Assembly (NCBI RefSeq): GCF_030814015.1
Contig: NZ_JAUSUL010000001.1
Location: 896,001-960,000 of the forward strand
Length of the DNA stretch: 64,000 bases
Source of the DNA: Amorphus orientalis
GTDB lineage: Bacteria; Pseudomonadota; Alphaproteobacteria; Rhizobiales; Amorphaceae
Direction: 5' to 3'
The notes under the pieces are model-generated. The model saw only the letters and a program-made list of their open reading frames with translations. It was not told the DNA's origin and made no database searches. Numbering within the stretch: position 1 is the stretch's first letter; the number at the start of each line of letters is the position of its first letter. Shown here piece by piece: positions 5,526 to 55,223 of this stretch. The position numbers and the translations under genes were made by a program.

Positions 5526-6304
5526 CAGCGGGGCCTCCGCGCATCCAGGAGATATTCCTGATTGCCGTCGCCACCGGTCAGCGGCGCGGGGATCGGTGAT
5601 CCGGCGGTCCACCCGGCGTCTTCCAGAAAGGCCTGAAGGCGTTCGAACATGGCCGCGATCGGAGCGTCCTCGCGGACCAGACCGCCCTTGCCGATCCAGT
5701 CCCGGCCGACCTCGAACTGCGGCTTGACCAGAGTGACCAGGCGGGCCGACGGCGCCGCCAGCGCCAGGGCCGGCTCCAGTGCCTGGGTCAGCGAAATGAA
5801 GCTGAGGTCGGCGACGATTAGGTCGGGAGCCGCCTGAAGATGGGCGGCGCTCAGATCGCGGGCGTTCAGGCCCTCGATCGAGCGAACGCGGGGATCGTCG
5901 GCGATGAGGGGCGCGAGTTGCCCGTGGCCGACGTCGATGGCGGTGACGCTGCCGGCGCCCCGCTCCAGCAGGACCTGGGTGAAGCCGCCGGTGGAGGCGC
6001 CGAGATCGAGCGCGTTGCGCCCGGTGACGTCTATGGCGAAGGCGTCGAGGGCGGCGACCAGCTTCAGCGCGCTGCGCGAGACATAGCCCCCGGCGGGATC
6101 GTCCATTTCAAGGTCTGCGTCGGCAGCGATCCGTTGCGCGGGACGTCGGCATGGACGGCCGTCGACGGTCACGGTTCCACGCAGGATGGCGTCGCGGGCC
6201 GCCGCCCGCGAGCGCGCCAGACCGCGCTCGGCGAGGGCCTGGTCGAGGCGCAGGCGTGACGGATCTGAATGGGCCGGATTGTCGGCGAGGGCACGGTCGG
6301 TCAA
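5525..6304 (-). CDS. tlyA: TlyA family rRNA (cytidine-2'-O)-methyltransferase
   Basis: A 259-residue protein with an N-terminal S4 RNA-binding domain (RLRLDQALAERGLARSR, about 17-33) and an FtsJ-like methyltransferase domain: LDLGASTGGFTQVLL, AIDVGHGQLAP, VADLSFISLTQAL and LVKPQFEVGR. TlyA enzymes 2'-O-methylate cytidines of 16S and/or 23S rRNA and are often mislabelled hemolysins. The start appears to be TTG (6302-6304) preceded by AGGA. It is followed directly by the TrmA-like gene. Confidence 0.92.
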   Translation of the reverse strand: MTDRALADNPAHSDPSRLRLDQALAERGLARSRAAARDAILRGTVTVDGRPCRRPAQRIAADADLEMDDPAGGYVSRSALKLVAALDAFAIDVTGRNALDLGASTGGFTQVLLERGAGSVTAIDVGHGQLAPLIADDPRVRSIEGLNARDLSAAHLQAAPDLIVADLSFISLTQALEPALALAAPSARLVTLVKPQFEVGRDWIGKGGLVREDAPIAAMFERLQAFLEDAGWTAGSPIPAPLTGGDGNQEYLLDARRPR

Positions 6305-46336: not shown

Positions 46337-47830
46337 CTACAGCTTGACGCAGACGTTCCTGAGTTCGGTGTAGAACTCCAGCGAGTGGACTCCGCCCTCC
46401 CGGCCGACACCGGAGCTCTTGGAGCCGCCGAAGGGGGTGCGCAGGTCGCGCAGGAACCAGCAGTTCACCCAGGTGATGCCGACCTCGATCTGCTTCGCCA
46501 CGCGGTGCGCCTGGGACAGGTCCTGGGTCCAGATCGAGGTGGCGAGGCCGTAGGGGCTGTCGTTGGCGAGCGCGACGCCCTCCTCCTCGCTGTCGAACGG
46601 GGTGAGATGGGCGCACGGTCCGAAGATCTCGTCGGTGATCACCGCGGAGGATTCCGGCAATCCGGTCCAAACGGTCGGCTGCACCCAGTAGCCCTTCTCG
46701 AAGCCGTCCACCTCGGGCGCCCCGCCGCCGGCGAGCACCGTGGCGCCTTCGGCCCGGGCCTTCTCGTAGTAGGACAGCACCTTTTTCTGATGCACCCGGG
46801 AGATGGTCGGGCCCATGGAGGTCGCCTTGGAGAAAGGATCGCCGAAGGCATAGGCTCTGGCCTTCTCGGCTAGCGCCTCGGCGACCCGGTCGAAGATGCC
46901 GCGCTGGACATACACCCGCTCGGTGCCGAGGCAGACCTGGCCTGTGTTGGCAAAGCAGGAGCGTCCTAGCCCCTCGATGGTCTTGTCCAGGTCGGCGGTG
47001 TCGAAGACGATCGCCGGGTTCTTGCCGCCGAGCTCCAGGGACACCGGCCGCACGCCCTTCGCGGCCGCTCCCATGATCGCTTCGCCGGTCACCGTTTCGC
47101 CGGTGAAGGTGATGGCGTCCACGTCGGGATGTCGAGTGAGGAACTCGCCGGTGCTGCCCGGTCCGAAACCGTGCACCACGTTGTAGACGCCTTCGGGAAT
47201 GCCGACCTCGTTCATGACCTCGCCGAGGAGCGTGGCGGTGGACGGAGTCTCTTCGGAGGGCTTCACGACAACCGTGTTGCCGCAGGCCAGCGCCGGCGCG
47301 ACCTTCCAGGTCATCAGGAGAAGCGGCAGGTTCCATGGGCAGATCACGCCGATGACGCCGCGCGGCAGGCGCAGCGCATAGTTCAGCGCGCCGGCGCCGT
47401 CGGGGGTGGGCATCTCGAAGGTCTCGGTCGAGACCGTCAGGATCTGGTCGGCGAACACGTTGAAGTTCGCCGCCCCGCGCGGGATGTCGATATGGCTGGC
47501 CAGCGAGACCGGCTTGCCGGTGTCGCGGATCTCCGCTTTCAGGAACTCGTCGAAGCGCGCGTTGATCCCGTCCGCGAGCTTGCGCAGAAGGGCGACCCGC
47601 TCGGGAATGCTCATGCGGCCCCAGGGGCCCTTGAGGGCCTTCCTGGCAGCCGAGACGGCGCGATCGACATCGTCGGAGGAGGCTTCGGTGACCACCGACA
47701 CCACCTCGTCGGTCGCGGGAAAGCGGTTTTCGAATGTCGTGCCGCCGCCTTCGACGAAGGCACCGCCGATGAAGTTCGGTACCCGGGTGAGATCAACGGT
47801 CTTGGTGGCGGGGCGGGCGGATTCGTTCAT
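46337..47830 (-). CDS. Aldehyde dehydrogenase, 2-hydroxymuconic semialdehyde dehydrogenase-like
   Basis: A 497-residue NAD(P)-dependent aldehyde dehydrogenase. The NAD region PWNLPLLLMTWKVAPALACGNTVVVKPSE, the base glutamate in SLELGGKNP and the nucleophile in FANTGQVCLGTERV are intact, with a PFGGSKSSGVGREGG end. Relatives act on 2-hydroxymuconic and 5-carboxymethyl-2-hydroxymuconic semialdehydes, ring-cleavage products. It overlaps the preceding gene by four bases. Confidence 0.88.
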   Translation of the reverse strand: MNESARPATKTVDLTRVPNFIGGAFVEGGGTTFENRFPATDEVVSVVTEASSDDVDRAVSAARKALKGPWGRMSIPERVALLRKLADGINARFDEFLKAEIRDTGKPVSLASHIDIPRGAANFNVFADQILTVSTETFEMPTPDGAGALNYALRLPRGVIGVICPWNLPLLLMTWKVAPALACGNTVVVKPSEETPSTATLLGEVMNEVGIPEGVYNVVHGFGPGSTGEFLTRHPDVDAITFTGETVTGEAIMGAAAKGVRPVSLELGGKNPAIVFDTADLDKTIEGLGRSCFANTGQVCLGTERVYVQRGIFDRVAEALAEKARAYAFGDPFSKATSMGPTISRVHQKKVLSYYEKARAEGATVLAGGGAPEVDGFEKGYWVQPTVWTGLPESSAVITDEIFGPCAHLTPFDSEEEGVALANDSPYGLATSIWTQDLSQAHRVAKQIEVGITWVNCWFLRDLRTPFGGSKSSGVGREGGVHSLEFYTELRNVCVKL

Positions 47831-48510
47831 TTCGGCAACTCCGGGTCTCCGGCTGTCAGGTGGTCCCACATGCGCTCGAAGATCATGCCGGCTTTCGTCG
47901 CGCGGGCGGCGGCGGCATCGGGCGCGATGGTGGGGGCGATATCGGCAAGCCCGGCCTTGAGGGCTTCAAGTTCGACGCGGCAGACGTCTTCCAGGTACCA
48001 GGCAAGCACCACGGCCTCGATCAGGCTTTCGCCGGCGGTGACGGCACCGTTGCCGCGCATGAGCACACCGGCGTTGGCACCCATCGTCGCCACGACGCCC
48101 TTAGCCTTTTCGTCGTCGCGGATCAGCTGAATGTCGTCCCACACCGGCACTTCGGGCGCGAAATAGGTGCCGAAGCCGTGGCGGGGCTTCGGCGAGCGGG
48201 CGAGTGCGGCCAGCGCCATGGCGTTGGGGCCCATGTAGCGCACCACGCCGCCGGCTTCGGGCCGGGTGCGGTAGATGTGCTGGTGGATGCGGACCTCGCC
48301 GAGGACCCCGTCCGGCAGTGGGCCGTCGACGGGAACCGGGGTGCAGGATTCGCCCGGCTCGACCAGTCCCATCGGCCGTGCCGGGCAGACGAGAAAGGTG
48401 TCCGCGTCCAGCCTGGCGGAACAGTGGCCGTAGGCATGCACCAGTCCGTGCTTGCCGAGGGCACGCGCGGCAATGCGGACGGTCCGCGCAAGGTCCGGTT
48501 CGCTGCTCAT
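47827..48510 (-). CDS. Class II aldolase/adducin family protein, probable decarboxylase
   Basis: A 227-residue protein of the class II aldolase/adducin fold. Zinc ligands H76 and H78 are in GEVRIHQHIYRTRP; the position of the third histidine is N154 (MRGNGAVTAG). Relatives in ring-cleavage operons include decarboxylases for carboxylated ring-cleavage products (p-cumate CmtD, 3,4-dihydroxyphthalate). In this context a decarboxylase is more likely than an aldolase. Overlaps the aldehyde dehydrogenase gene. Confidence 0.75.
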   Translation of the reverse strand: MSSEPDLARTVRIAARALGKHGLVHAYGHCSARLDADTFLVCPARPMGLVEPGESCTPVPVDGPLPDGVLGEVRIHQHIYRTRPEAGGVVRYMGPNAMALAALARSPKPRHGFGTYFAPEVPVWDDIQLIRDDEKAKGVVATMGANAGVLMRGNGAVTAGESLIEAVVLAWYLEDVCRVELEALKAGLADIAPTIAPDAAAARATKAGMIFERMWDHLTAGDPELPK

Positions 48511-48601: not shown

Positions 48602-49459
48602 CTAGTCCTGGAAGGCCGGAATGTTCGGCTTGGAGCCCCACTGGCAGAAACCGGTCGGTTCGAACGGGAACTGTCTGTCTCGCCACAGCGGCTCGTCGTG
48701 GATCTCGCAGACGCCGGTCGAATATTCGTAGGTGAGCCCGTCCGGTCCGGAGAAGTAGAGGAACTGGGCGGACGAGGTCGGGTGCCGGCCGGGTCCGAAG
48801 GTGATGTTCACCTGCTGCTCCCGCAGCATGTTGAGGGAGCGCTGGATGTCGTCGGTGGCGGCCACCTGGTGATTGATGTGCTGGATGCCGGATCGGTTGG
48901 ACGGGAAAAGCGCGATCGAATGGTGGATCGCGCCCAGGCGCATCAAGGGGGCCTCTCCGATCCGGTCGGAGACGCGCGCGTTGCAGACGGTGGTCCAGAA
49001 TTTCTCGTCCCGGGCCGGGTCGGTCGTATAGAGCCCGACATGGCTGAACCCGGTGATGCCGGCGTCGCGGGTGCCATGATAGCGGCGGCCGGAATGCTCC
49101 GGACGGACGACCAGCTCGATGGCGTTGCCGGTGGGGTCGGAAAAGCGGATGAAATCGCGCACGTGACGGGAGGTGCATTCCTCGGGCGTCCCGGCGTGGA
49201 CCCGGTGGCCGAGGTCTTCCAGCGTCGCGGCGGCCGCCTGAAGCTCGGACGCGCCGGCGACTTCGAATGCGGTCACCTGGTCGTCGGGGTCGCCTTCGAA
49301 ATAGCAGAGGGTGTGGTAGCGGTCGTCCGATTTGAAGTGCACCGCGCCGCGCTGACGCTCCGCCACTTCGAGGCCGAGAATGTTGACGGCAAACCATTCG
49401 GCCCCGTCGAGATCCCGGGTGCCGAGACGGCAGTAAACCACGTCTTTCAAGTCGATCAT
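48602..49459 (-). CDS. Type I extradiol ring-cleavage dioxygenase (VOC fold)
   Basis: A 285-residue two-domain VOC dioxygenase. Iron ligands H140 (GFSHVGL), H194 (IQHINHQ) and E245 (TYEYSTG), with active-site H179/H180, H226 and Y235, align with those of 2,3-dihydroxybiphenyl dioxygenases, so it should be active. The class II aldolase next to it hints that the substrate carries a carboxyl group (as in 2,3-dihydroxy-p-cumate). It is about 40% like its neighbour at 49498 by eye. Confidence 0.86.
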   Translation of the reverse strand: MIDLKDVVYCRLGTRDLDGAEWFAVNILGLEVAERQRGAVHFKSDDRYHTLCYFEGDPDDQVTAFEVAGASELQAAAATLEDLGHRVHAGTPEECTSRHVRDFIRFSDPTGNAIELVVRPEHSGRRYHGTRDAGITGFSHVGLYTTDPARDEKFWTTVCNARVSDRIGEAPLMRLGAIHHSIALFPSNRSGIQHINHQVAATDDIQRSLNMLREQQVNITFGPGRHPTSSAQFLYFSGPDGLTYEYSTGVCEIHDEPLWRDRQFPFEPTGFCQWGSKPNIPAFQD

Positions 49460-49497
49460 TGCGGGACAAACCTCCCTGTTGAGCCGGGCGGGGCGCC

Positions 49498-50370
49498 CTA
49501 GAGCGTGTTCCCGAGAAACTCGGGCTGGGTGGTCGGGGACCCCCAGGCGCAATGGGATCCCGCCTCGGCCGGAAACTGCCGCGGAACACGGCCGTCGAGA
49601 TCCGGACCGCGGTCCATTCCGGTGCTGAACGTGTAAAGAAGGTCGCGGGGCCCGCGGGTGGTCACGAAGGCCTTGCCCGACGTCGGCTGCCGGCCCGGAC
49701 CGTGCACGACCGGCAACTGCTGTCCCTGGAAGAAATAGAAATTCTGCATGACGTTGTTGATGCCTTCCACGGCGAAGTCGATCCCGAGTAATCCGTTCTG
49801 CTGCGAGGGATAGAGAGCAATCCGGTGGTGGGCGTCGTCGAGCCTCAGAAAGACGGCGTCGCCGGCCCAGTCGGAGACGGAAAGCCCCACGATACGGGTC
49901 CAGAAATCCTCGTCGGCCGCGACGTCTGTGGTGGCAAGCGCGACGGAGGAAAACTCCACGATGCCGGCATCGCGCGGGCCGTGATAGCGCCAGCCGGAGG
50001 CGAGGGGCCGCCAGACGAACTCGACCGCGATCCCGTTGGGCGCGCGGCAGGCAATGCCCTTCTTGATGCTGCGCGCGGCGCAGTCGGCGTCGTCGAGCGC
50101 CTTCACCGCGATGCCGAACGAAGTCAGCCGCTCGCTCATGGAGGCGAGGTCGTCGTCGGTGGCCACGGTGAGCGCGACAGCGTCGGTCTCGTCGGCGGTG
50201 GAGAAGCACACCGAATAGGCCCGTGCGTCGGAGCGGAAGAATGCACGGCCATCGGTGGCACCGGACGGCTGAAGGCCGAGCGTTTCGGCCGCGAATCCGG
50301 ACGGTTCCGCGAGATCGTCGGTCGCGATCCGAACGTAGCGCAGATCTCGGAACGGTACGGCCGCTGGCAT
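49498..50370 (-). CDS. Catalytically dead type I extradiol dioxygenase paralog
   Basis: A 290-residue homologue of the adjacent dioxygenase, with the same fold and conserved blocks (RYHGPRDAGI, GPGRQPTS, TFSTG). All three iron ligands are replaced: S142 for H140, G196 for H194, T247 for E245; the tyrosine and second histidine of the active site are also lost (T and Q228). H181/H182 remain. There is no frameshift, and the gene is within the operon, so it is kept by selection perhaps as a partner subunit, ligand sensor or a non-oxidative enzyme. Confidence 0.82.
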   Translation of the reverse strand: MPAAVPFRDLRYVRIATDDLAEPSGFAAETLGLQPSGATDGRAFFRSDARAYSVCFSTADETDAVALTVATDDDLASMSERLTSFGIAVKALDDADCAARSIKKGIACRAPNGIAVEFVWRPLASGWRYHGPRDAGIVEFSSVALATTDVAADEDFWTRIVGLSVSDWAGDAVFLRLDDAHHRIALYPSQQNGLLGIDFAVEGINNVMQNFYFFQGQQLPVVHGPGRQPTSGKAFVTTRGPRDLLYTFSTGMDRGPDLDGRVPRQFPAEAGSHCAWGSPTTQPEFLGNTL

Positions 50371-50439: not shown

Positions 50440-51420
50440 TCAGTTCCTGATCTTCTCGGCTTCCGCCTCGAGATCGGTGAGCATCGGGGCCTCTTCGCGC
50501 CAGGTGACGTACCACTCGTCGATGGCGTCGCCGAAGAACGGCCGGCCGACGGTGATGACCGGAACATCCGTGGTCTTCAGCTGCGCGAGATAGTCGGCAT
50601 CGATGGAGGCGTAGGAGCCGATCAGTTCGTCGAGGAAGCTGTCGAACGCGGCCTCGACCTTCTCACGATCGCCCTCGGGGATCTGCTGCCAGCTGCGTCC
50701 GGACGCGACCGCGATCATCGGGAACATCATGTGGTTCGATTCGATGATGGTGTCGGCGTGCTCGTAGTATTTGGAGTTCCAGGTGCCCTCGAAGTCGATC
50801 TGCATGCCGTCGACCTGGCCGTTGGCGAAGGCGTCGTAGAGGGCCGGCAGCGGCATCGGGGTCGGGGCAGCGCCCACCTTCTTCCAGAAGTCGAGCTCCG
50901 GAGCGAAGGGGATGGTGCGGATCTTCTTGCCGGAGATGTCGTCGACGGAGTCCACCTCGTTGGCCATGACGATCTGGCGCATGCCGGCCATGCCGTAGCC
51001 GAGTCCGACGAGCCCGAACTGGTCGACCTGATCGAGCAGCTTGTTGGCCGTCTCCCCCTGGAGAAGCTTCCGGGCGCCGGCCACGTCGTCGACGATGTAG
51101 GGCGCCAGGAAGATGCCGTAGTTCGGATCGCGGTTGGAGAACTCGCCGAGCGTCAGGAAGGCGAAGTCGAGGGCGCCGGTCTGAAGCTGCTGCAACATCT
51201 GCGCCTCGTTGCCGAGCTGGCCGCTCGGGAAGATCAGGATGTTGACCGCGCCGTCGGTCTCCTTCTTCAGCTGGTCCGCCATGGCCTGGGCCGTCTTGGT
51301 CCACTGGTGGGGCGGCGGCGTGATCAGGCCGAGCCGGTAGTCCTTGGCCGACGCGGCGCCGGCGGAGACCGCGAGCGCGGCGGCGGCCGCGAGCGCGCCC
51401 AGAGTGCGAAGTCCCTTCAT
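50440..51420 (-). CDS. TRAP importer substrate-binding protein, DctP family
   Basis: A 326-residue periplasmic protein with a signal peptide (MKGLRTLGALAAAAALAVSAGAASA) and the DctP pattern: VNILIFPSGQLGNEAQMLQQLQTGALDFAFL, LGYGMAGMRQIVMAN, the GKKIRT segment with an organic acid-binding arginine, and YDAFANGQVDGM. It binds a carboxylate, probably an aromatic acid, and feeds DctQ/DctM encoded upstream. Gap of 11 bases after the dehydrogenase gene. Confidence 0.9.
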   Translation of the reverse strand: MKGLRTLGALAAAAALAVSAGAASAKDYRLGLITPPPHQWTKTAQAMADQLKKETDGAVNILIFPSGQLGNEAQMLQQLQTGALDFAFLTLGEFSNRDPNYGIFLAPYIVDDVAGARKLLQGETANKLLDQVDQFGLVGLGYGMAGMRQIVMANEVDSVDDISGKKIRTIPFAPELDFWKKVGAAPTPMPLPALYDAFANGQVDGMQIDFEGTWNSKYYEHADTIIESNHMMFPMIAVASGRSWQQIPEGDREKVEAAFDSFLDELIGSYASIDADYLAQLKTTDVPVITVGRPFFGDAIDEWYVTWREEAPMLTDLEAEAEKIRN

Positions 51421-51431
51421 GCGTTTCCTCC

Positions 51432-52382
51432 TCAGTTTTGCGGTTCTGCTTGTTGGGTCGAAAGGTCGTCGAGGCAGTCGAGGACGGCCAGCATGGCGGT
51501 GTCGCGGTGCCGGGCGATCTCTGCCGGCGACCGCCCGGCCGCGGCGTCGCGCATGCCATCGATCAGGATCTTGCGGGTGTGCTCGTCGAGCCGGGGATCA
51601 CCGAGGCTGTCCCACCAGCGCTCGACCTCGCCTCCCAGGTCGTCGAGAAACTTGGGCAGACCGGCCGATCCGCCGGCCAGATGGAAGATCGTGGTCGGAC
51701 CGATCACGGACCAGCGGGCGCCGAGGCCGTCGGTGACCGCGCGCTCGATGTCGGCCACGGAGGCGACGCCCTCGCGGGCCATGTGGACGGCCTCCCGCCA
51801 CAGCGCTGCCTGCAGACGATTGACGAGATGGCCCGGAACCTCGCGTCGGACCCGCAACACCACCTTGCCGAGACCCTCGAACAGGGCCGCGGCCTGATCG
51901 ATCGCCGCCGGATCGGTGCGGTCGCCGCCGCCGATCTCCACGGTCGGCATCAGATAGGGCGGGTTGCACGGGTGCCCCAGCACCAGCCGCTCCGGATGGG
52001 CCATGCCCTCCTGCAACTCGCTGACCGAAAGCCCGGACGAACTCGTCACGATGATCGTCTCGGCGGGAATGGCGGCTTCGAGCTCCGCAAGGGCCGAGCG
52101 CTTGAGCTCGATCCGTTCCGGCAGGGCTTCAACGACGAAGGCGGGTGGCGCGGGAAGCACGCTCGGCGAGGTGACGTGACGAGGTGGAAGGGGTTCGGCT
52201 ACGGACCGCTTCAGCCGCTTCAGGACGGGCAGCGCGCTGCGCCAGGTCTCCGACAGGCGCCCGGCGGCCGCCGGGTCGGGGTCGATGACGGTCGTCGGAT
52301 GACCGGCGGCCGAAAACACCGCCGCCCAGCCGCAGCCGATGGTTCCGCCGCCGAGGACCGCAATGGGTTCGGGCGGGCTCAT
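51432..52382 (-). CDS. 3-hydroxyacyl-CoA dehydrogenase-fold enzyme, carnitine/gulonate-dehydrogenase-like
   Basis: A 316-residue NAD-dependent enzyme: Rossmann motif AVLGGGTIGCGWAAVFSAAGH, catalytic-region VLGHPCNPPYLMPTVEI, and VPGHLVNRLQAALWREAVHM. Length and motifs fit L-carnitine or L-gulonate dehydrogenases as well as hydroxybutyryl-CoA dehydrogenases. It is lodged between the TRAP large permease and the TRAP binding-protein genes, with ATGA overlap to the permease, which is unusual and implies a direct link to the imported compound. Confidence 0.82.
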   Translation of the reverse strand: MSPPEPIAVLGGGTIGCGWAAVFSAAGHPTTVIDPDPAAAGRLSETWRSALPVLKRLKRSVAEPLPPRHVTSPSVLPAPPAFVVEALPERIELKRSALAELEAAIPAETIIVTSSSGLSVSELQEGMAHPERLVLGHPCNPPYLMPTVEIGGGDRTDPAAIDQAAALFEGLGKVVLRVRREVPGHLVNRLQAALWREAVHMAREGVASVADIERAVTDGLGARWSVIGPTTIFHLAGGSAGLPKFLDDLGGEVERWWDSLGDPRLDEHTRKILIDGMRDAAAGRSPAEIARHRDTAMLAVLDCLDDLSTQQAEPQN

Positions 52383-53653
52383 TCCAGAAGGCCCTTCAGG
52401 CCGATGGTGAGCGGCGGGAACAGCGACAGGAGAACGATGACCACGGCCGAGGCGAGGAAGAACGGCACGATCAGCCAGGCGATCCGCTCCGCCCGCACGT
52501 TGCCCATCAGAGCGGCCGTGAACAGGCCGGTGCCGACCGGCGGTGTCAGCAGGCCGAGGGTGAGGTTGAGGCAGACGATGACGCCGAACTGGAACGGGTC
52601 GATGCCATAGGTATCCATGGCGACCGGCAGAAGAACCGGCACCACCAGGATGATGGCGGGGATCGGATCGGTGATCGTGCCCAGGAGCAGAAGCAGGATG
52701 TTGAGGAGCAGCAGGAACACCAGCGGCGAGGAGGTCAGCGACTGCAGCCAGGCCGCCACCGTGGCCGGCACGTTCTCGAAGGTGATGACCCAGGAGAAGA
52801 CCTGGGCGGCGGCGATCAGGAAGAGCACGATGGCCGCGTTGCGCGCTGCCCTCACGAAGGCCGGCGCCAGATCGCGGAAGCTCATGTCGCGATAGACGAA
52901 CAGGCCGATCAGCATGGCGGCGAGGGTTGCGATGGCGGCGGCTTCGGTCGGCGTCGCGATGCCGCCGAGGATGGTGCCGATGATGATGACCGGGATCGAC
53001 AGCGCCGGGAGGGCATCGATCAGCGCCCGTCCGCGCTCCTTCATCGTCATGGCGTCGGTGGTCGGGAAGCCGTGCTTCTGGCCGAGGAAGGCGATGACGC
53101 CGATGAAGGCGACGAACAGGATCAGGCCGGGCACAACGCCGGCGATGAACAGATCGCCGATCGGAATCTGGGCGATCACGCCAAAGATGATGAACATCAT
53201 CGAGGGCGGGATGATCGGCGCGAGCACGCTGCCCGCCGCCGTGATCGCCACCGAGACGTCGCGGGGATAGCCGGCGCGCTCCATTTCCGGCACCGCCATC
53301 TTCGACATGATCGTGATCTGGGCGACGGCGGAGCCGAGGATGGAGGCCATGAACATGTTGGCCACCAGATTGACGTAGGCGAGGCCGCCCTTGATGCGGC
53401 CGAGCAGCGCCAGCGACAGGGCCATGAGCCGCCGGCCGATGCCGCCGGAGTTCATCATTTCGCCGAGCAGGATGAAGAGCGGCAGTGCCAGCAGGCCGTA
53501 GTTCTCCAGCCCGCCGAACATCTGCTGGGCATAGGACTGGAGCAGCACCGTGTTGTCGCTGGCGAAGATGTAGATCAGCGCGGTGGCGGCGAGCGCGAAG
53601 GCGATGGGGAAGCCGATCGCGATCAGGGTGACGAACGAGCCTGCGACCAGCAT
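52379..53653 (-). CDS. TRAP importer large permease, DctM family
   Basis: A 424-residue inner-membrane protein with about twelve membrane segments: FILLGEMMNSGGIGRRL, the SMMFIIFGVIAQIPIG block, TPTEAAAIATLAA and GLLTPPVGTGLFTAA. Works with the DctQ subunit and the DctP-type binding protein in the same operon, driven by an ion gradient. Overlaps the next gene by four bases and the previous by one (TGATG). Confidence 0.92.
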   Translation of the reverse strand: MLVAGSFVTLIAIGFPIAFALAATALIYIFASDNTVLLQSYAQQMFGGLENYGLLALPLFILLGEMMNSGGIGRRLMALSLALLGRIKGGLAYVNLVANMFMASILGSAVAQITIMSKMAVPEMERAGYPRDVSVAITAAGSVLAPIIPPSMMFIIFGVIAQIPIGDLFIAGVVPGLILFVAFIGVIAFLGQKHGFPTTDAMTMKERGRALIDALPALSIPVIIIGTILGGIATPTEAAAIATLAAMLIGLFVYRDMSFRDLAPAFVRAARNAAIVLFLIAAAQVFSWVITFENVPATVAAWLQSLTSSPLVFLLLLNILLLLLGTITDPIPAIILVVPVLLPVAMDTYGIDPFQFGVIVCLNLTLGLLTPPVGTGLFTAALMGNVRAERIAWLIVPFFLASAVVIVLLSLFPPLTIGLKGLLE

Positions 53654-54246
53654 CAGCGGTGCTCCTGCAGTCGGCGGACGCTGCCGGCGAGATTGCGCAG
53701 GGCATGCAGGTTCAGGGTCAGGCAGGCGTACGGCATGATCAGCCAGAACCAGACCTTGCGCATGCCGATCGTCGTCGTCGGCTCGGTGTAGATGAAATTG
53801 AAGGTCGCCCGGGAGAAGTCGCGCAGCGTCTCGGCGCCGAGCACCGTGATCGGGTCGAACCATCGCCAGACGATCAGGCCCAGGCTGATCGTGAACATGA
53901 GAAGGAGCAGATCGACGCCCACCGCAAGCGCAGCACGGATCCTGGGAGTGACCGCTTCGGGCAACAGCGTGACGGCTATGTGCTCGCGGCGGGCCAGTCC
54001 CGCGGAGCTGCCGAGAAAGGCCGCCCAGATCATGGCGTAGATCGCCAACTCGTCGATCCAGATCACCGGGGTGCCGAGCGCCCGCGTCGCGGCGTTGACG
54101 ATCAGGAGCGCGAATATGGCCGCGACCAGAAGGCCCGCCAGCCACGAATCGAAGGTCGCAACGGCGTCGCTCAGCCGGGTGAGGCCGCCCGGGCGCTGCG
54201 GCACGTCGACGGATGTCGGTTCCGCGCTGCTCACCAGGCTCGCCAT
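53653..54246 (-). CDS. TRAP importer small permease, DctQ family
   Basis: A 197-residue protein with four membrane helices (about 25-50, 60-85, 105-130, 150-170), first gene of the eight-gene operon reading leftwards. The region upstream (54364-54376) carries a GntR-operator-like site. A start at 54276 is possible but would place the first helix less well. Confidence 0.88.
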   Translation of the reverse strand: MASLVSSAEPTSVDVPQRPGGLTRLSDAVATFDSWLAGLLVAAIFALLIVNAATRALGTPVIWIDELAIYAMIWAAFLGSSAGLARREHIAVTLLPEAVTPRIRAALAVGVDLLLLMFTISLGLIVWRWFDPITVLGAETLRDFSRATFNFIYTEPTTTIGMRKVWFWLIMPYACLTLNLHALRNLAGSVRRLQEHR

Positions 54247-54363
54247 GCCAACTTTGTCCGGTTCACGTCGGCGCACACGCCGGACCCTCCCTGTTCACCG
54301 GGTCATCTTCGTCTTTGTGCGAAGCCTTTCCGTAAAATATCAAAATTATACCTTCGTCAATCC

Positions 54364-54512: not shown

Positions 54513-55223
54513 ATGACCGACGTGATCCACCATGCCCGCTATGATGGGCCGGAGAAGACCTTCGCCGAGCGCGCTTACCGGCTCATTCGCGAGGATATCG
54601 TGGGTGGCGTGCTGGAGCCGGGCCTGAAGCTGAAGATCCAGATGCTGCAGGAGCGCTACGACATCGGCGCGGGCCCGCTGCGCGAGGCGCTCGCCCGGCT
54701 GTCGAGCGATCAGCTTGTCGAGCTGGAAGGCCAGCGCGGCTGCCGGGTCGCGCTGATGTCGGCGAAGGATGCCCGGGAAATCGGGGATCTGCGCAAGGTG
54801 CTGGAAGCCCAGGCGCTGCAGCAGTCGATCCCGGCCGGCGACGATGCCTGGGAGACCGCGGTCATCACAGCCTATCACCGGCTGGAGCAGATCGAGCGCC
54901 GGCTCAATCAGGGGATCAGCGACCTGCCGGAATGGGAGATGCGCAATCAGCAGTTCCACAAGGCGCTGGTGGCGGCGTGCGATTCCCGCCGCCTGCACTG
55001 GATGCGGCAGCTGATGTTCGACCAGCACGAACGGTACCGGCGCCTGTCACGGGTGAAGACGGTCCGCACCCGCGACATCAACGAGGAGCATCGCGCGCTC
55101 TTCGAGGCGGCCGTGGACCGGGACGTCGACAAGGCCGTGGCCGTCATCGGCGTCCACGTGCAGCGCACGACGGATGCCGTTCTGGCGGCGCTGGCTCAGC
55201 AAGACCCGGTCATCAAGCCGTAG
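54513..55223 (+). CDS. GntR family regulator, FCD subfamily
   Basis: A 236-residue regulator: winged helix AYRLIREDIVGGVLEPG and GAGPLREALARLSSDQL (about 23-72), FCD domain with MRNQQFHKALVAA and EEHRALFEAA. It is a paralog of the regulator at 36024. Divergent from the eight-gene TRAP/ring-cleavage operon, which it very probably controls. Confidence 0.9.
   Translation: MTDVIHHARYDGPEKTFAERAYRLIREDIVGGVLEPGLKLKIQMLQERYDIGAGPLREALARLSSDQLVELEGQRGCRVALMSAKDAREIGDLRKVLEAQALQQSIPAGDDAWETAVITAYHRLEQIERRLNQGISDLPEWEMRNQQFHKALVAACDSRRLHWMRQLMFDQHERYRRLSRVKTVRTRDINEEHRALFEAAVDRDVDKAVAVIGVHVQRTTDAVLAALAQQDPVIKP

Follow-up and report, generated by a model that had tools for sequence, protein, structure and literature searches.

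A ligand-less paralog kept beside an intact type I extradiol dioxygenase in Alphaproteobacteria: a probable non-catalytic partner in ring cleavage

The window studied here, a stretch of 64,000 nucleotides from the genome of Amorphus orientalis (contig NZ_JAUSUL010000001.1, positions 896,001 to 960,000), contains two neighbouring genes of the type I extradiol dioxygenase family, P2 lying directly upstream of P1 in the order of transcription. The operon runs from DctQ through DctM, a 3-hydroxyacyl-CoA/carnitine dehydrogenase-like gene, DctP, P2, P1 and a class II aldolase-fold gene to a 2-hydroxymuconic semialdehyde (HMS) dehydrogenase gene, and is followed by a branched-chain-type ABC transporter. 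Its genes and the adjoining regulator are as follows:

46337..47830, minus strand: 2-hydroxymuconic semialdehyde dehydrogenase, 497 aa, matching TIGR03216 above its cut-off
47827..48510, minus strand: class II aldolase-fold protein, 227 aa, which probably decarboxylates the product of ring cleavage
48602..49459, minus strand: P1, intact type I (VOC) extradiol dioxygenase, 285 aa, proposed catalytic subunit
49498..50370, minus strand: P2, ligand-less type I extradiol dioxygenase paralog, 290 aa, proposed non-catalytic subunit
50440..51420, minus strand: TRAP transporter solute-binding protein DctP
51432..52382, minus strand: 3-hydroxyacyl-CoA / carnitine dehydrogenase-like protein, 316 aa
52379..53653, minus strand: TRAP large permease DctM, 424 aa, assigned through its annotated Tistrella homolog
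53653..54276, minus strand: TRAP small permease DctQ
54513..55223, plus strand: GntR/FCD-family regulator, divergent from the operon

The initial annotation had presented P1 and P2 as two intact paralogous frames, and both ORFs are indeed found at these coordinates on the minus strand, sharing 38% identity over 282 residues with one gap (BLASTP), so that the correspondence of residues between them is clear. Read directly, P1 carries the triad H140, H194 and E245 together with the second-sphere residues H226 and Y235, whose roles we take over by analogy from BphC and HPCD, while the same five positions of P2 hold S142, G196, T247, Q228 and T237, which are the losses that had been claimed for this gene. 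The RYHG and GPGR blocks, also described earlier as shared, are common to both proteins in the BLASTP alignment, and a neighbouring double histidine (H179-H180 in P1, H181-H182 in P2) is likewise kept. With the complete 2-His-1-Glu triad and the second-sphere His and Tyr of active type I extradiol dioxygenases, P1 is predicted to be an active ring-cleaving enzyme; P2 lacks this triad and retains the two-domain fold. Neither frame is interrupted, and third codon positions are 86% G+C in P1 and 83% in P2. The P1 reading frame also stays open across the entire P2 gene (48602-50383, minus strand, 593 codons), probably an effect of the high G+C, and this could mislead gene callers.

AlphaFold2 models, built from 13 (P2) and 17 (P1) aligned sequences, were confident for both proteins, with mean pLDDT values of 89.1 for P2 and 88.0 for P1. 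The P2 model found its best VIA-align match in BphC (1kw3, Z 32.9, rmsd 2.0 over 269 residues), and the P1 model ranked 3b59 first in Foldseek (E 2.7e-25), followed by BphC-type enzymes. As modelled, P2 has the two-domain extradiol fold without the metal site. P2-type proteins match extradiol dioxygenase profiles, though under the curated cut-offs, and their genes are labelled 'VOC family protein'; annotators should not count them as dioxygenases in catabolic surveys. The C-terminal tail, which carries the invariant residues R262, C272, W274 and G275, has low confidence in the P1 monomer model (pLDDT 57-59), as would be expected if the tail orders on assembly.

Relatives were sought with P2 in 297 genomes of the window's order (8 with a match at E<=1e-30), in 385 genomes of its class (17 at E<=1e-45) and in a plasmid collection (97 records matched). 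A profile built from 14 P2-type proteins was applied at E<=1e-40 to the 385 class genomes, returning the same 17, to 398 genomes of the phylum (7 matches) and to 257 genomes of the family of G216 (16 matches), a family chosen since G216 carries the pair, which makes the sample uneven. Matches in the genome sets include intact enzymes. Seven of the 97 plasmid records were fetched, the other 90 being mostly Pseudosulfitobacter copies and weaker matches, and one locus, from Paenochrobactrum gallinarii, was added from a scan of named genomes. Once identical proteins had been collapsed, among them the intact partner of G329, identical to that of Tistrella, the final set comprised 82 rows, 31 P2-type and 51 intact; PburkD15 (31.7% identical) was taken as the outgroup and kept out of the site counts, which therefore cover 50 of the 51 intact rows.

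Loss of the catalytic residues is general among the P2-type proteins. None of the five is present in 28/31, one being kept in the other three, and none of the three iron ligands in 30/31, the last keeping one; all five are found in 50/50 intact relatives, the distant outlier being left out. Since the same loss recurs in 31 homologs, these sequences exclude chance as its cause. The conserved co-occurrence that the initial annotation had proposed to look for is equally general: every one of the 31 P2-type genes has an intact partner downstream on the same strand, directly adjacent in 30, the sole non-adjacent pair (G224) having an aldolase gene and a regulator in between. With starts chosen by rule, the two frames overlap by 4 nt in 11 of the 30 measured pairs. 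All 31 ligand-less paralogs come from Alphaproteobacteria; the 398-genome phylum sample held no P2-type protein outside the window's class, and its sole match beyond that class (G902) is intact and single. A second gene lost or broken in close relatives would have spoken against the pair, and in G017, of the same genus, both genes are intact; neither P1 nor P2 was matched in 8 other genomes of the window's family (E<=1e-30).

Two further kinds of loci were encountered in this survey. Tandem type I genes with all ligands kept in both copies occur at L091 9174-11013, L024 and L026 (G502, G668, G591), and these doubly intact tandems fall outside the paired clade of the tree. On the Leisingera sp. 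NJS204 plasmid L099, positions 6001-6226 give a two-piece match of 226 bases, 50% identical to P2 residues 111-188, without an annotated gene; this fragment, perhaps a relic of a P2-like extradiol enzyme, contributed no row to the 82-row set.

Phylogenetic analysis placed the P2-type proteins in one clade (support 99/96; 100% of the 200 bootstrap trees recovered it) and the paired intact proteins in another (100/96). The latter excludes the intact proteins that occur singly (15) or as doubles (6), and each of its sampled members neighbours a P2-type gene. Distances within the two groups correlate (r=0.826, with 0 of 2000 permutations as high) and their trees have 14 of 27 splits in common, 10 of these at 95 or more in both, with three pairs of well-supported splits in conflict. 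Such mirror trees and linkage can nevertheless arise from operon co-inheritance without contact between the proteins. Rooted on a very long outgroup branch, the tree puts the P2-type proteins outside all intact relatives; a tree joining them with the paired intact proteins is not rejected (p-AU 0.361), so that the duplication may be older or younger than the single enzymes. Two long P2-type branches (Pseudosulfitobacter and G1120) join, a grouping flagged with a warning.

The selection on the second gene that the initial annotation had suggested comparing is purifying. The dN/dS ratio (NG86) of P2-type genes ranges from 0.10 to 0.35 over ten genome pairs and that of the intact partners from 0.03 to 0.18 over nine measurable pairs, falling below the P2-type value in 9/9, with unreliable estimates where dS exceeds 1 (G1076/G1206, G1202/G1122 and, for the P2-type genes, G000/G671) and with no intact-gene value for Tistrella/G329 owing to the collapsed identical partner. 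The evolutionary rate of P2 is also roughly double that of P1 (median distance ratio 1.94). This speed, together with a dN/dS consistently above that of the partner, is what a decaying redundant duplicate would produce, but 31 intact frames, ratios well below 1 and one old origin make that explanation extremely improbable. A pseudogene status for P2 was rejected on the intact frames and on dN/dS below 1. Two hits had been flagged with one stop codon each, TGA in G671 and TAG in G1198; on later reading they gave an open frame of 284 residues and one of 285 residues, respectively. Conserved co-occurrence, a single origin and purifying selection together make it well supported, at the level of sequence, that P2 is a maintained pseudoenzyme beside an active copy, as had been claimed.

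Site conservation indicates where P2 has diverged. Of the 68 positions at which the intact proteins never vary, 35 are preserved in 80% or more of the P2-type proteins and 15 in 20% or less, with 18 in between. The 15 lost positions all fall within residues 138-250, in the C-terminal metal domain (lost positions after residue 137 versus up to 137, Fisher test, p 0.0009); they include all five catalytic positions, and most of them are metal-site residues or their direct neighbours. By comparison, the linker and tail keep 8 of 9 invariant positions and lose none. Within the P2-type proteins, the lost positions have a higher entropy than the rest of the domain (1.84 vs 1.33, p 0.012), which argues against the former metal site having acquired one new chemistry common to these proteins. 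The initial annotation had also asked whether other residues might supply the metal site, and the alignment gave no candidate: wherever 90% or more of the P2-type proteins agree on an H, D, E, C or Y, the intact proteins have that residue as their commonest one too. The HH pair is retained in 31/31 P2-type proteins, hinting at a residual ligand role for P2, and L172 is changed to Y or F in 29/31; both features would be compatible with a ligand-binding role of P2.

These observations bear on two of the alternatives. P2 could be a ligand-binding sensor or allosteric subunit, its pocket binding the substrate, the product or another metabolite and thereby controlling P1 or the operon; the retained histidines and the aromatic substitution suggest a pocket that was remodelled rather than abandoned, whereas the variability of the 15 lost positions is unlike a pocket for one shared ligand and domain analysis found no DNA-binding or signalling domain in P2, so that we regard this role as unlikely. 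Alternatively, P2 could act as a chaperone or as an iron-loading or reactivation partner that binds P1 transiently. The strict pairing with P2 upstream would suit such a helper, a common fold would permit transient heterodimers, and reactivating accessory ferredoxins exist for some extradiol enzymes; however, folding or iron-loading helpers are seldom full-length paralogs and P2 retains no conserved metal-binding residue, making this a rather unlikely explanation.

The genomic context of the pair was scored for nine gene types within 7 kb in the 31 neighbourhoods, with a reference set that misses distant homologs. Class II aldolase-type genes were found in 12/31, HMS dehydrogenase and FAH-type genes in 11/31 each, amidohydrolase-type (OpaD-like) and Rieske genes in 8/31 each, TRAP genes in 7/31 and ABC transporter genes in 4/31; none of the nine types was recognised in 9/31. 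Some contigs end early. G1172, scored without any of the nine, nonetheless has an Amidohydro_2 gene ~3 kb from the pair, and the pair of G1076 is flanked by a ubiD-type gene and pheST. The only constant companion of P2 among the genes tested is P1, any other type reaching at most 12/31, and the pair recurs in unrelated gene contexts. Where pathway neighbours are present, they fit a route in which the ring of a carboxycatechol is opened and the product then decarboxylated, as demonstrated for OpaC and OpaD (PMC6362003). In the window, the 47827..48510 protein appears DhbB/CmtD-like by context and has a weak match to the dihydroxyphthalate decarboxylase PhtC. Across the neighbourhoods the decarboxylases belong to two unrelated families, leaving no constant next step that P2 might serve if it were a metal-free enzyme with a new activity, such as isomerisation of the ring-cleavage product through the retained HH. 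The 31/31 conservation of that pair, including H180, which we take to be the counterpart of the acid-base histidine of extradiol enzymes, is compatible with such an activity; the old site has raised variability and no fixed new residues, and we consider this reading very unlikely. Among the roles proposed in the initial annotation, the non-oxidative enzyme fits poorly, the former metal-site positions of the ligand-less family being more variable than the remainder of that domain, and the heteromeric dioxygenase fits best, with an association that we infer.

Several details of these neighbourhoods deserve mention. A homolog of the carnitine-dehydrogenase-like 3-hydroxyacyl-CoA dehydrogenase (51432-52382) accompanies the pair in 8/31, in TRAP-type clusters. 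In the Tistrella pTM2 cluster (L005 10938-11910), DctP is annotated as two CDS where the G329 locus has one open frame, and the pTM2 gene may be frameshifted. By comparison with the Tistrella cluster, homologs of the lower pathway lie ~65 kb from the P2-P1 pair in the genome of the window; at G000:C1:1010564-1012098 (L143, L144), homologs of an FAH-type hydratase/decarboxylase (86%) and of an HpcH-type aldolase (71%) adjoin each other.

A dead paralog beside a live one is known from other ring-cleaving families and is apparently little explored in the type I family. PcaG and PcaH of protocatechuate 3,4-dioxygenase are two paralogous subunits with iron in one only, in an intradiol enzyme whose fold differs from that of P1 and P2, and the alpha subunit of AmnAB is a ligand-less paralog. 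As in AmnAB and PcaGH, the dead paralog is here conserved as one of a pair (31/31). AmnA and AmnB, the subunits of 2-aminophenol 1,6-dioxygenase, are described as products of adjacent genes with 270 and 304 aa (PMC3790839) and the active site is placed in the beta subunit (PMC4250580); on these accounts they resemble P1 and P2 as two similar-size subunits from adjacent genes, but they have the LigB-type fold and the order amnB-amnA, whereas the fold of P1 and P2 is of the two-domain VOC type and places them outside the AmnAB family proper. The hydroquinone 1,2-dioxygenase HqdA/HqdB is likewise reported as a heterotetramer from two neighbouring genes, with bands of 38 and 19 kDa, unlike same-size paralogs (PMC3222310).

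Among the closest known systems are single type I enzymes. The dhbA gene is reportedly due to Marin et al. and the psb genes to Puskas et al. The 2,3-dihydroxybenzoate 3,4-dioxygenases OpaC and DhbA and the 2,3-dihydroxy-p-cumate 3,4-dioxygenase CmtC are, like P1, described as type I enzymes, of ~285-314 aa, whose genes are followed by a decarboxylase and meta-pathway genes, neighbours that P1 also has in the window (PMC6362003; PMC5224996). Unlike P1, they are given in these sources as single genes, and their likeness to P1 is one of description and context. According to the same report, OpaC converts 2,3-dihydroxybenzoate to CHMS, which OpaD then decarboxylates, and is active in E. coli when expressed without a partner (PMC6362003). 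Its Table 1 also lists PsbC2, from the p-cumate pathway of Rhodopseudomonas palustris no. 7, as 51% identical to OpaC (PMC6362003), and Rieske-type operons carrying the P2-P1 pair (e.g. G1197, G1205, G1202, G1122) resemble this pathway. As given in that source, the name PsbC2 implies a PsbC1, probably a P2-type gene, and points to earlier sequencing of a pair like this one. The earlier statement that no such pair was known should be taken with care: no heteromeric type I extradiol dioxygenase appeared among the matches listed in the open-access literature, without implying its absence from print, while the implied PsbC1 and the dead paralogous subunits of other folds qualify the claim.

Taken together, P1 and P2 probably form one hetero-oligomeric extradiol dioxygenase for carboxylated catechols, of the 2,3-dihydroxybenzoate or p-cumate type, in which P2 is non-catalytic; a pair kept together through a long evolution is probably one two-part enzyme. 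The physical association and its stoichiometry, the substrate and the need of P1 for P2 are points that we infer. P1, with the sole Fe(II) site, would do the chemistry, and P2, a catalytically dead paralog in which fold, linker between the domains and C-terminal tail are preserved, would occupy some of the places in the oligomer with a structural and perhaps a tuning role. An ancestral homo-oligomer may have had some of its P1 subunits replaced by P2, whose iron site was lost once catalysis was no longer required of it. The cleavage product would be decarboxylated by the class II aldolase-fold protein and then oxidised by the hydroxymuconic semialdehyde dehydrogenase. Against this heteromeric enzyme stand the faster evolution of P2, the retained HH pair and related intact enzymes without a partner, such as that of G097, whose cluster resembles that of the window and shares TRAP genes with it at 48-70% identity. 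The activity of OpaC alone and such single enzymes in similar clusters indicate that no partner is needed for the reaction as such; P2 must therefore bring an advantage particular to the paired clade, which could be stability, substrate range, Fe(II) protection or control.

More broadly, we think it more likely than not that P2 represents an obligate pseudo-subunit of single origin in one type I (VOC) clade, evolved independently of the dead paralogs of AmnAB (LigB-type) and PcaGH (intradiol), in a two-gene module that was kept while its neighbourhoods changed, down to a bicistron without recognised pathway genes in some genomes. This module of ~1.8 kb offers a tractable system, with the stand-alone intact relatives as a natural comparison. 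If the complex is real, three unrelated ring-cleavage folds would each have turned one duplicate into a dead partner, a recurrence that would ask for a common reason, whether stability, substrate range, Fe(II) protection or control.
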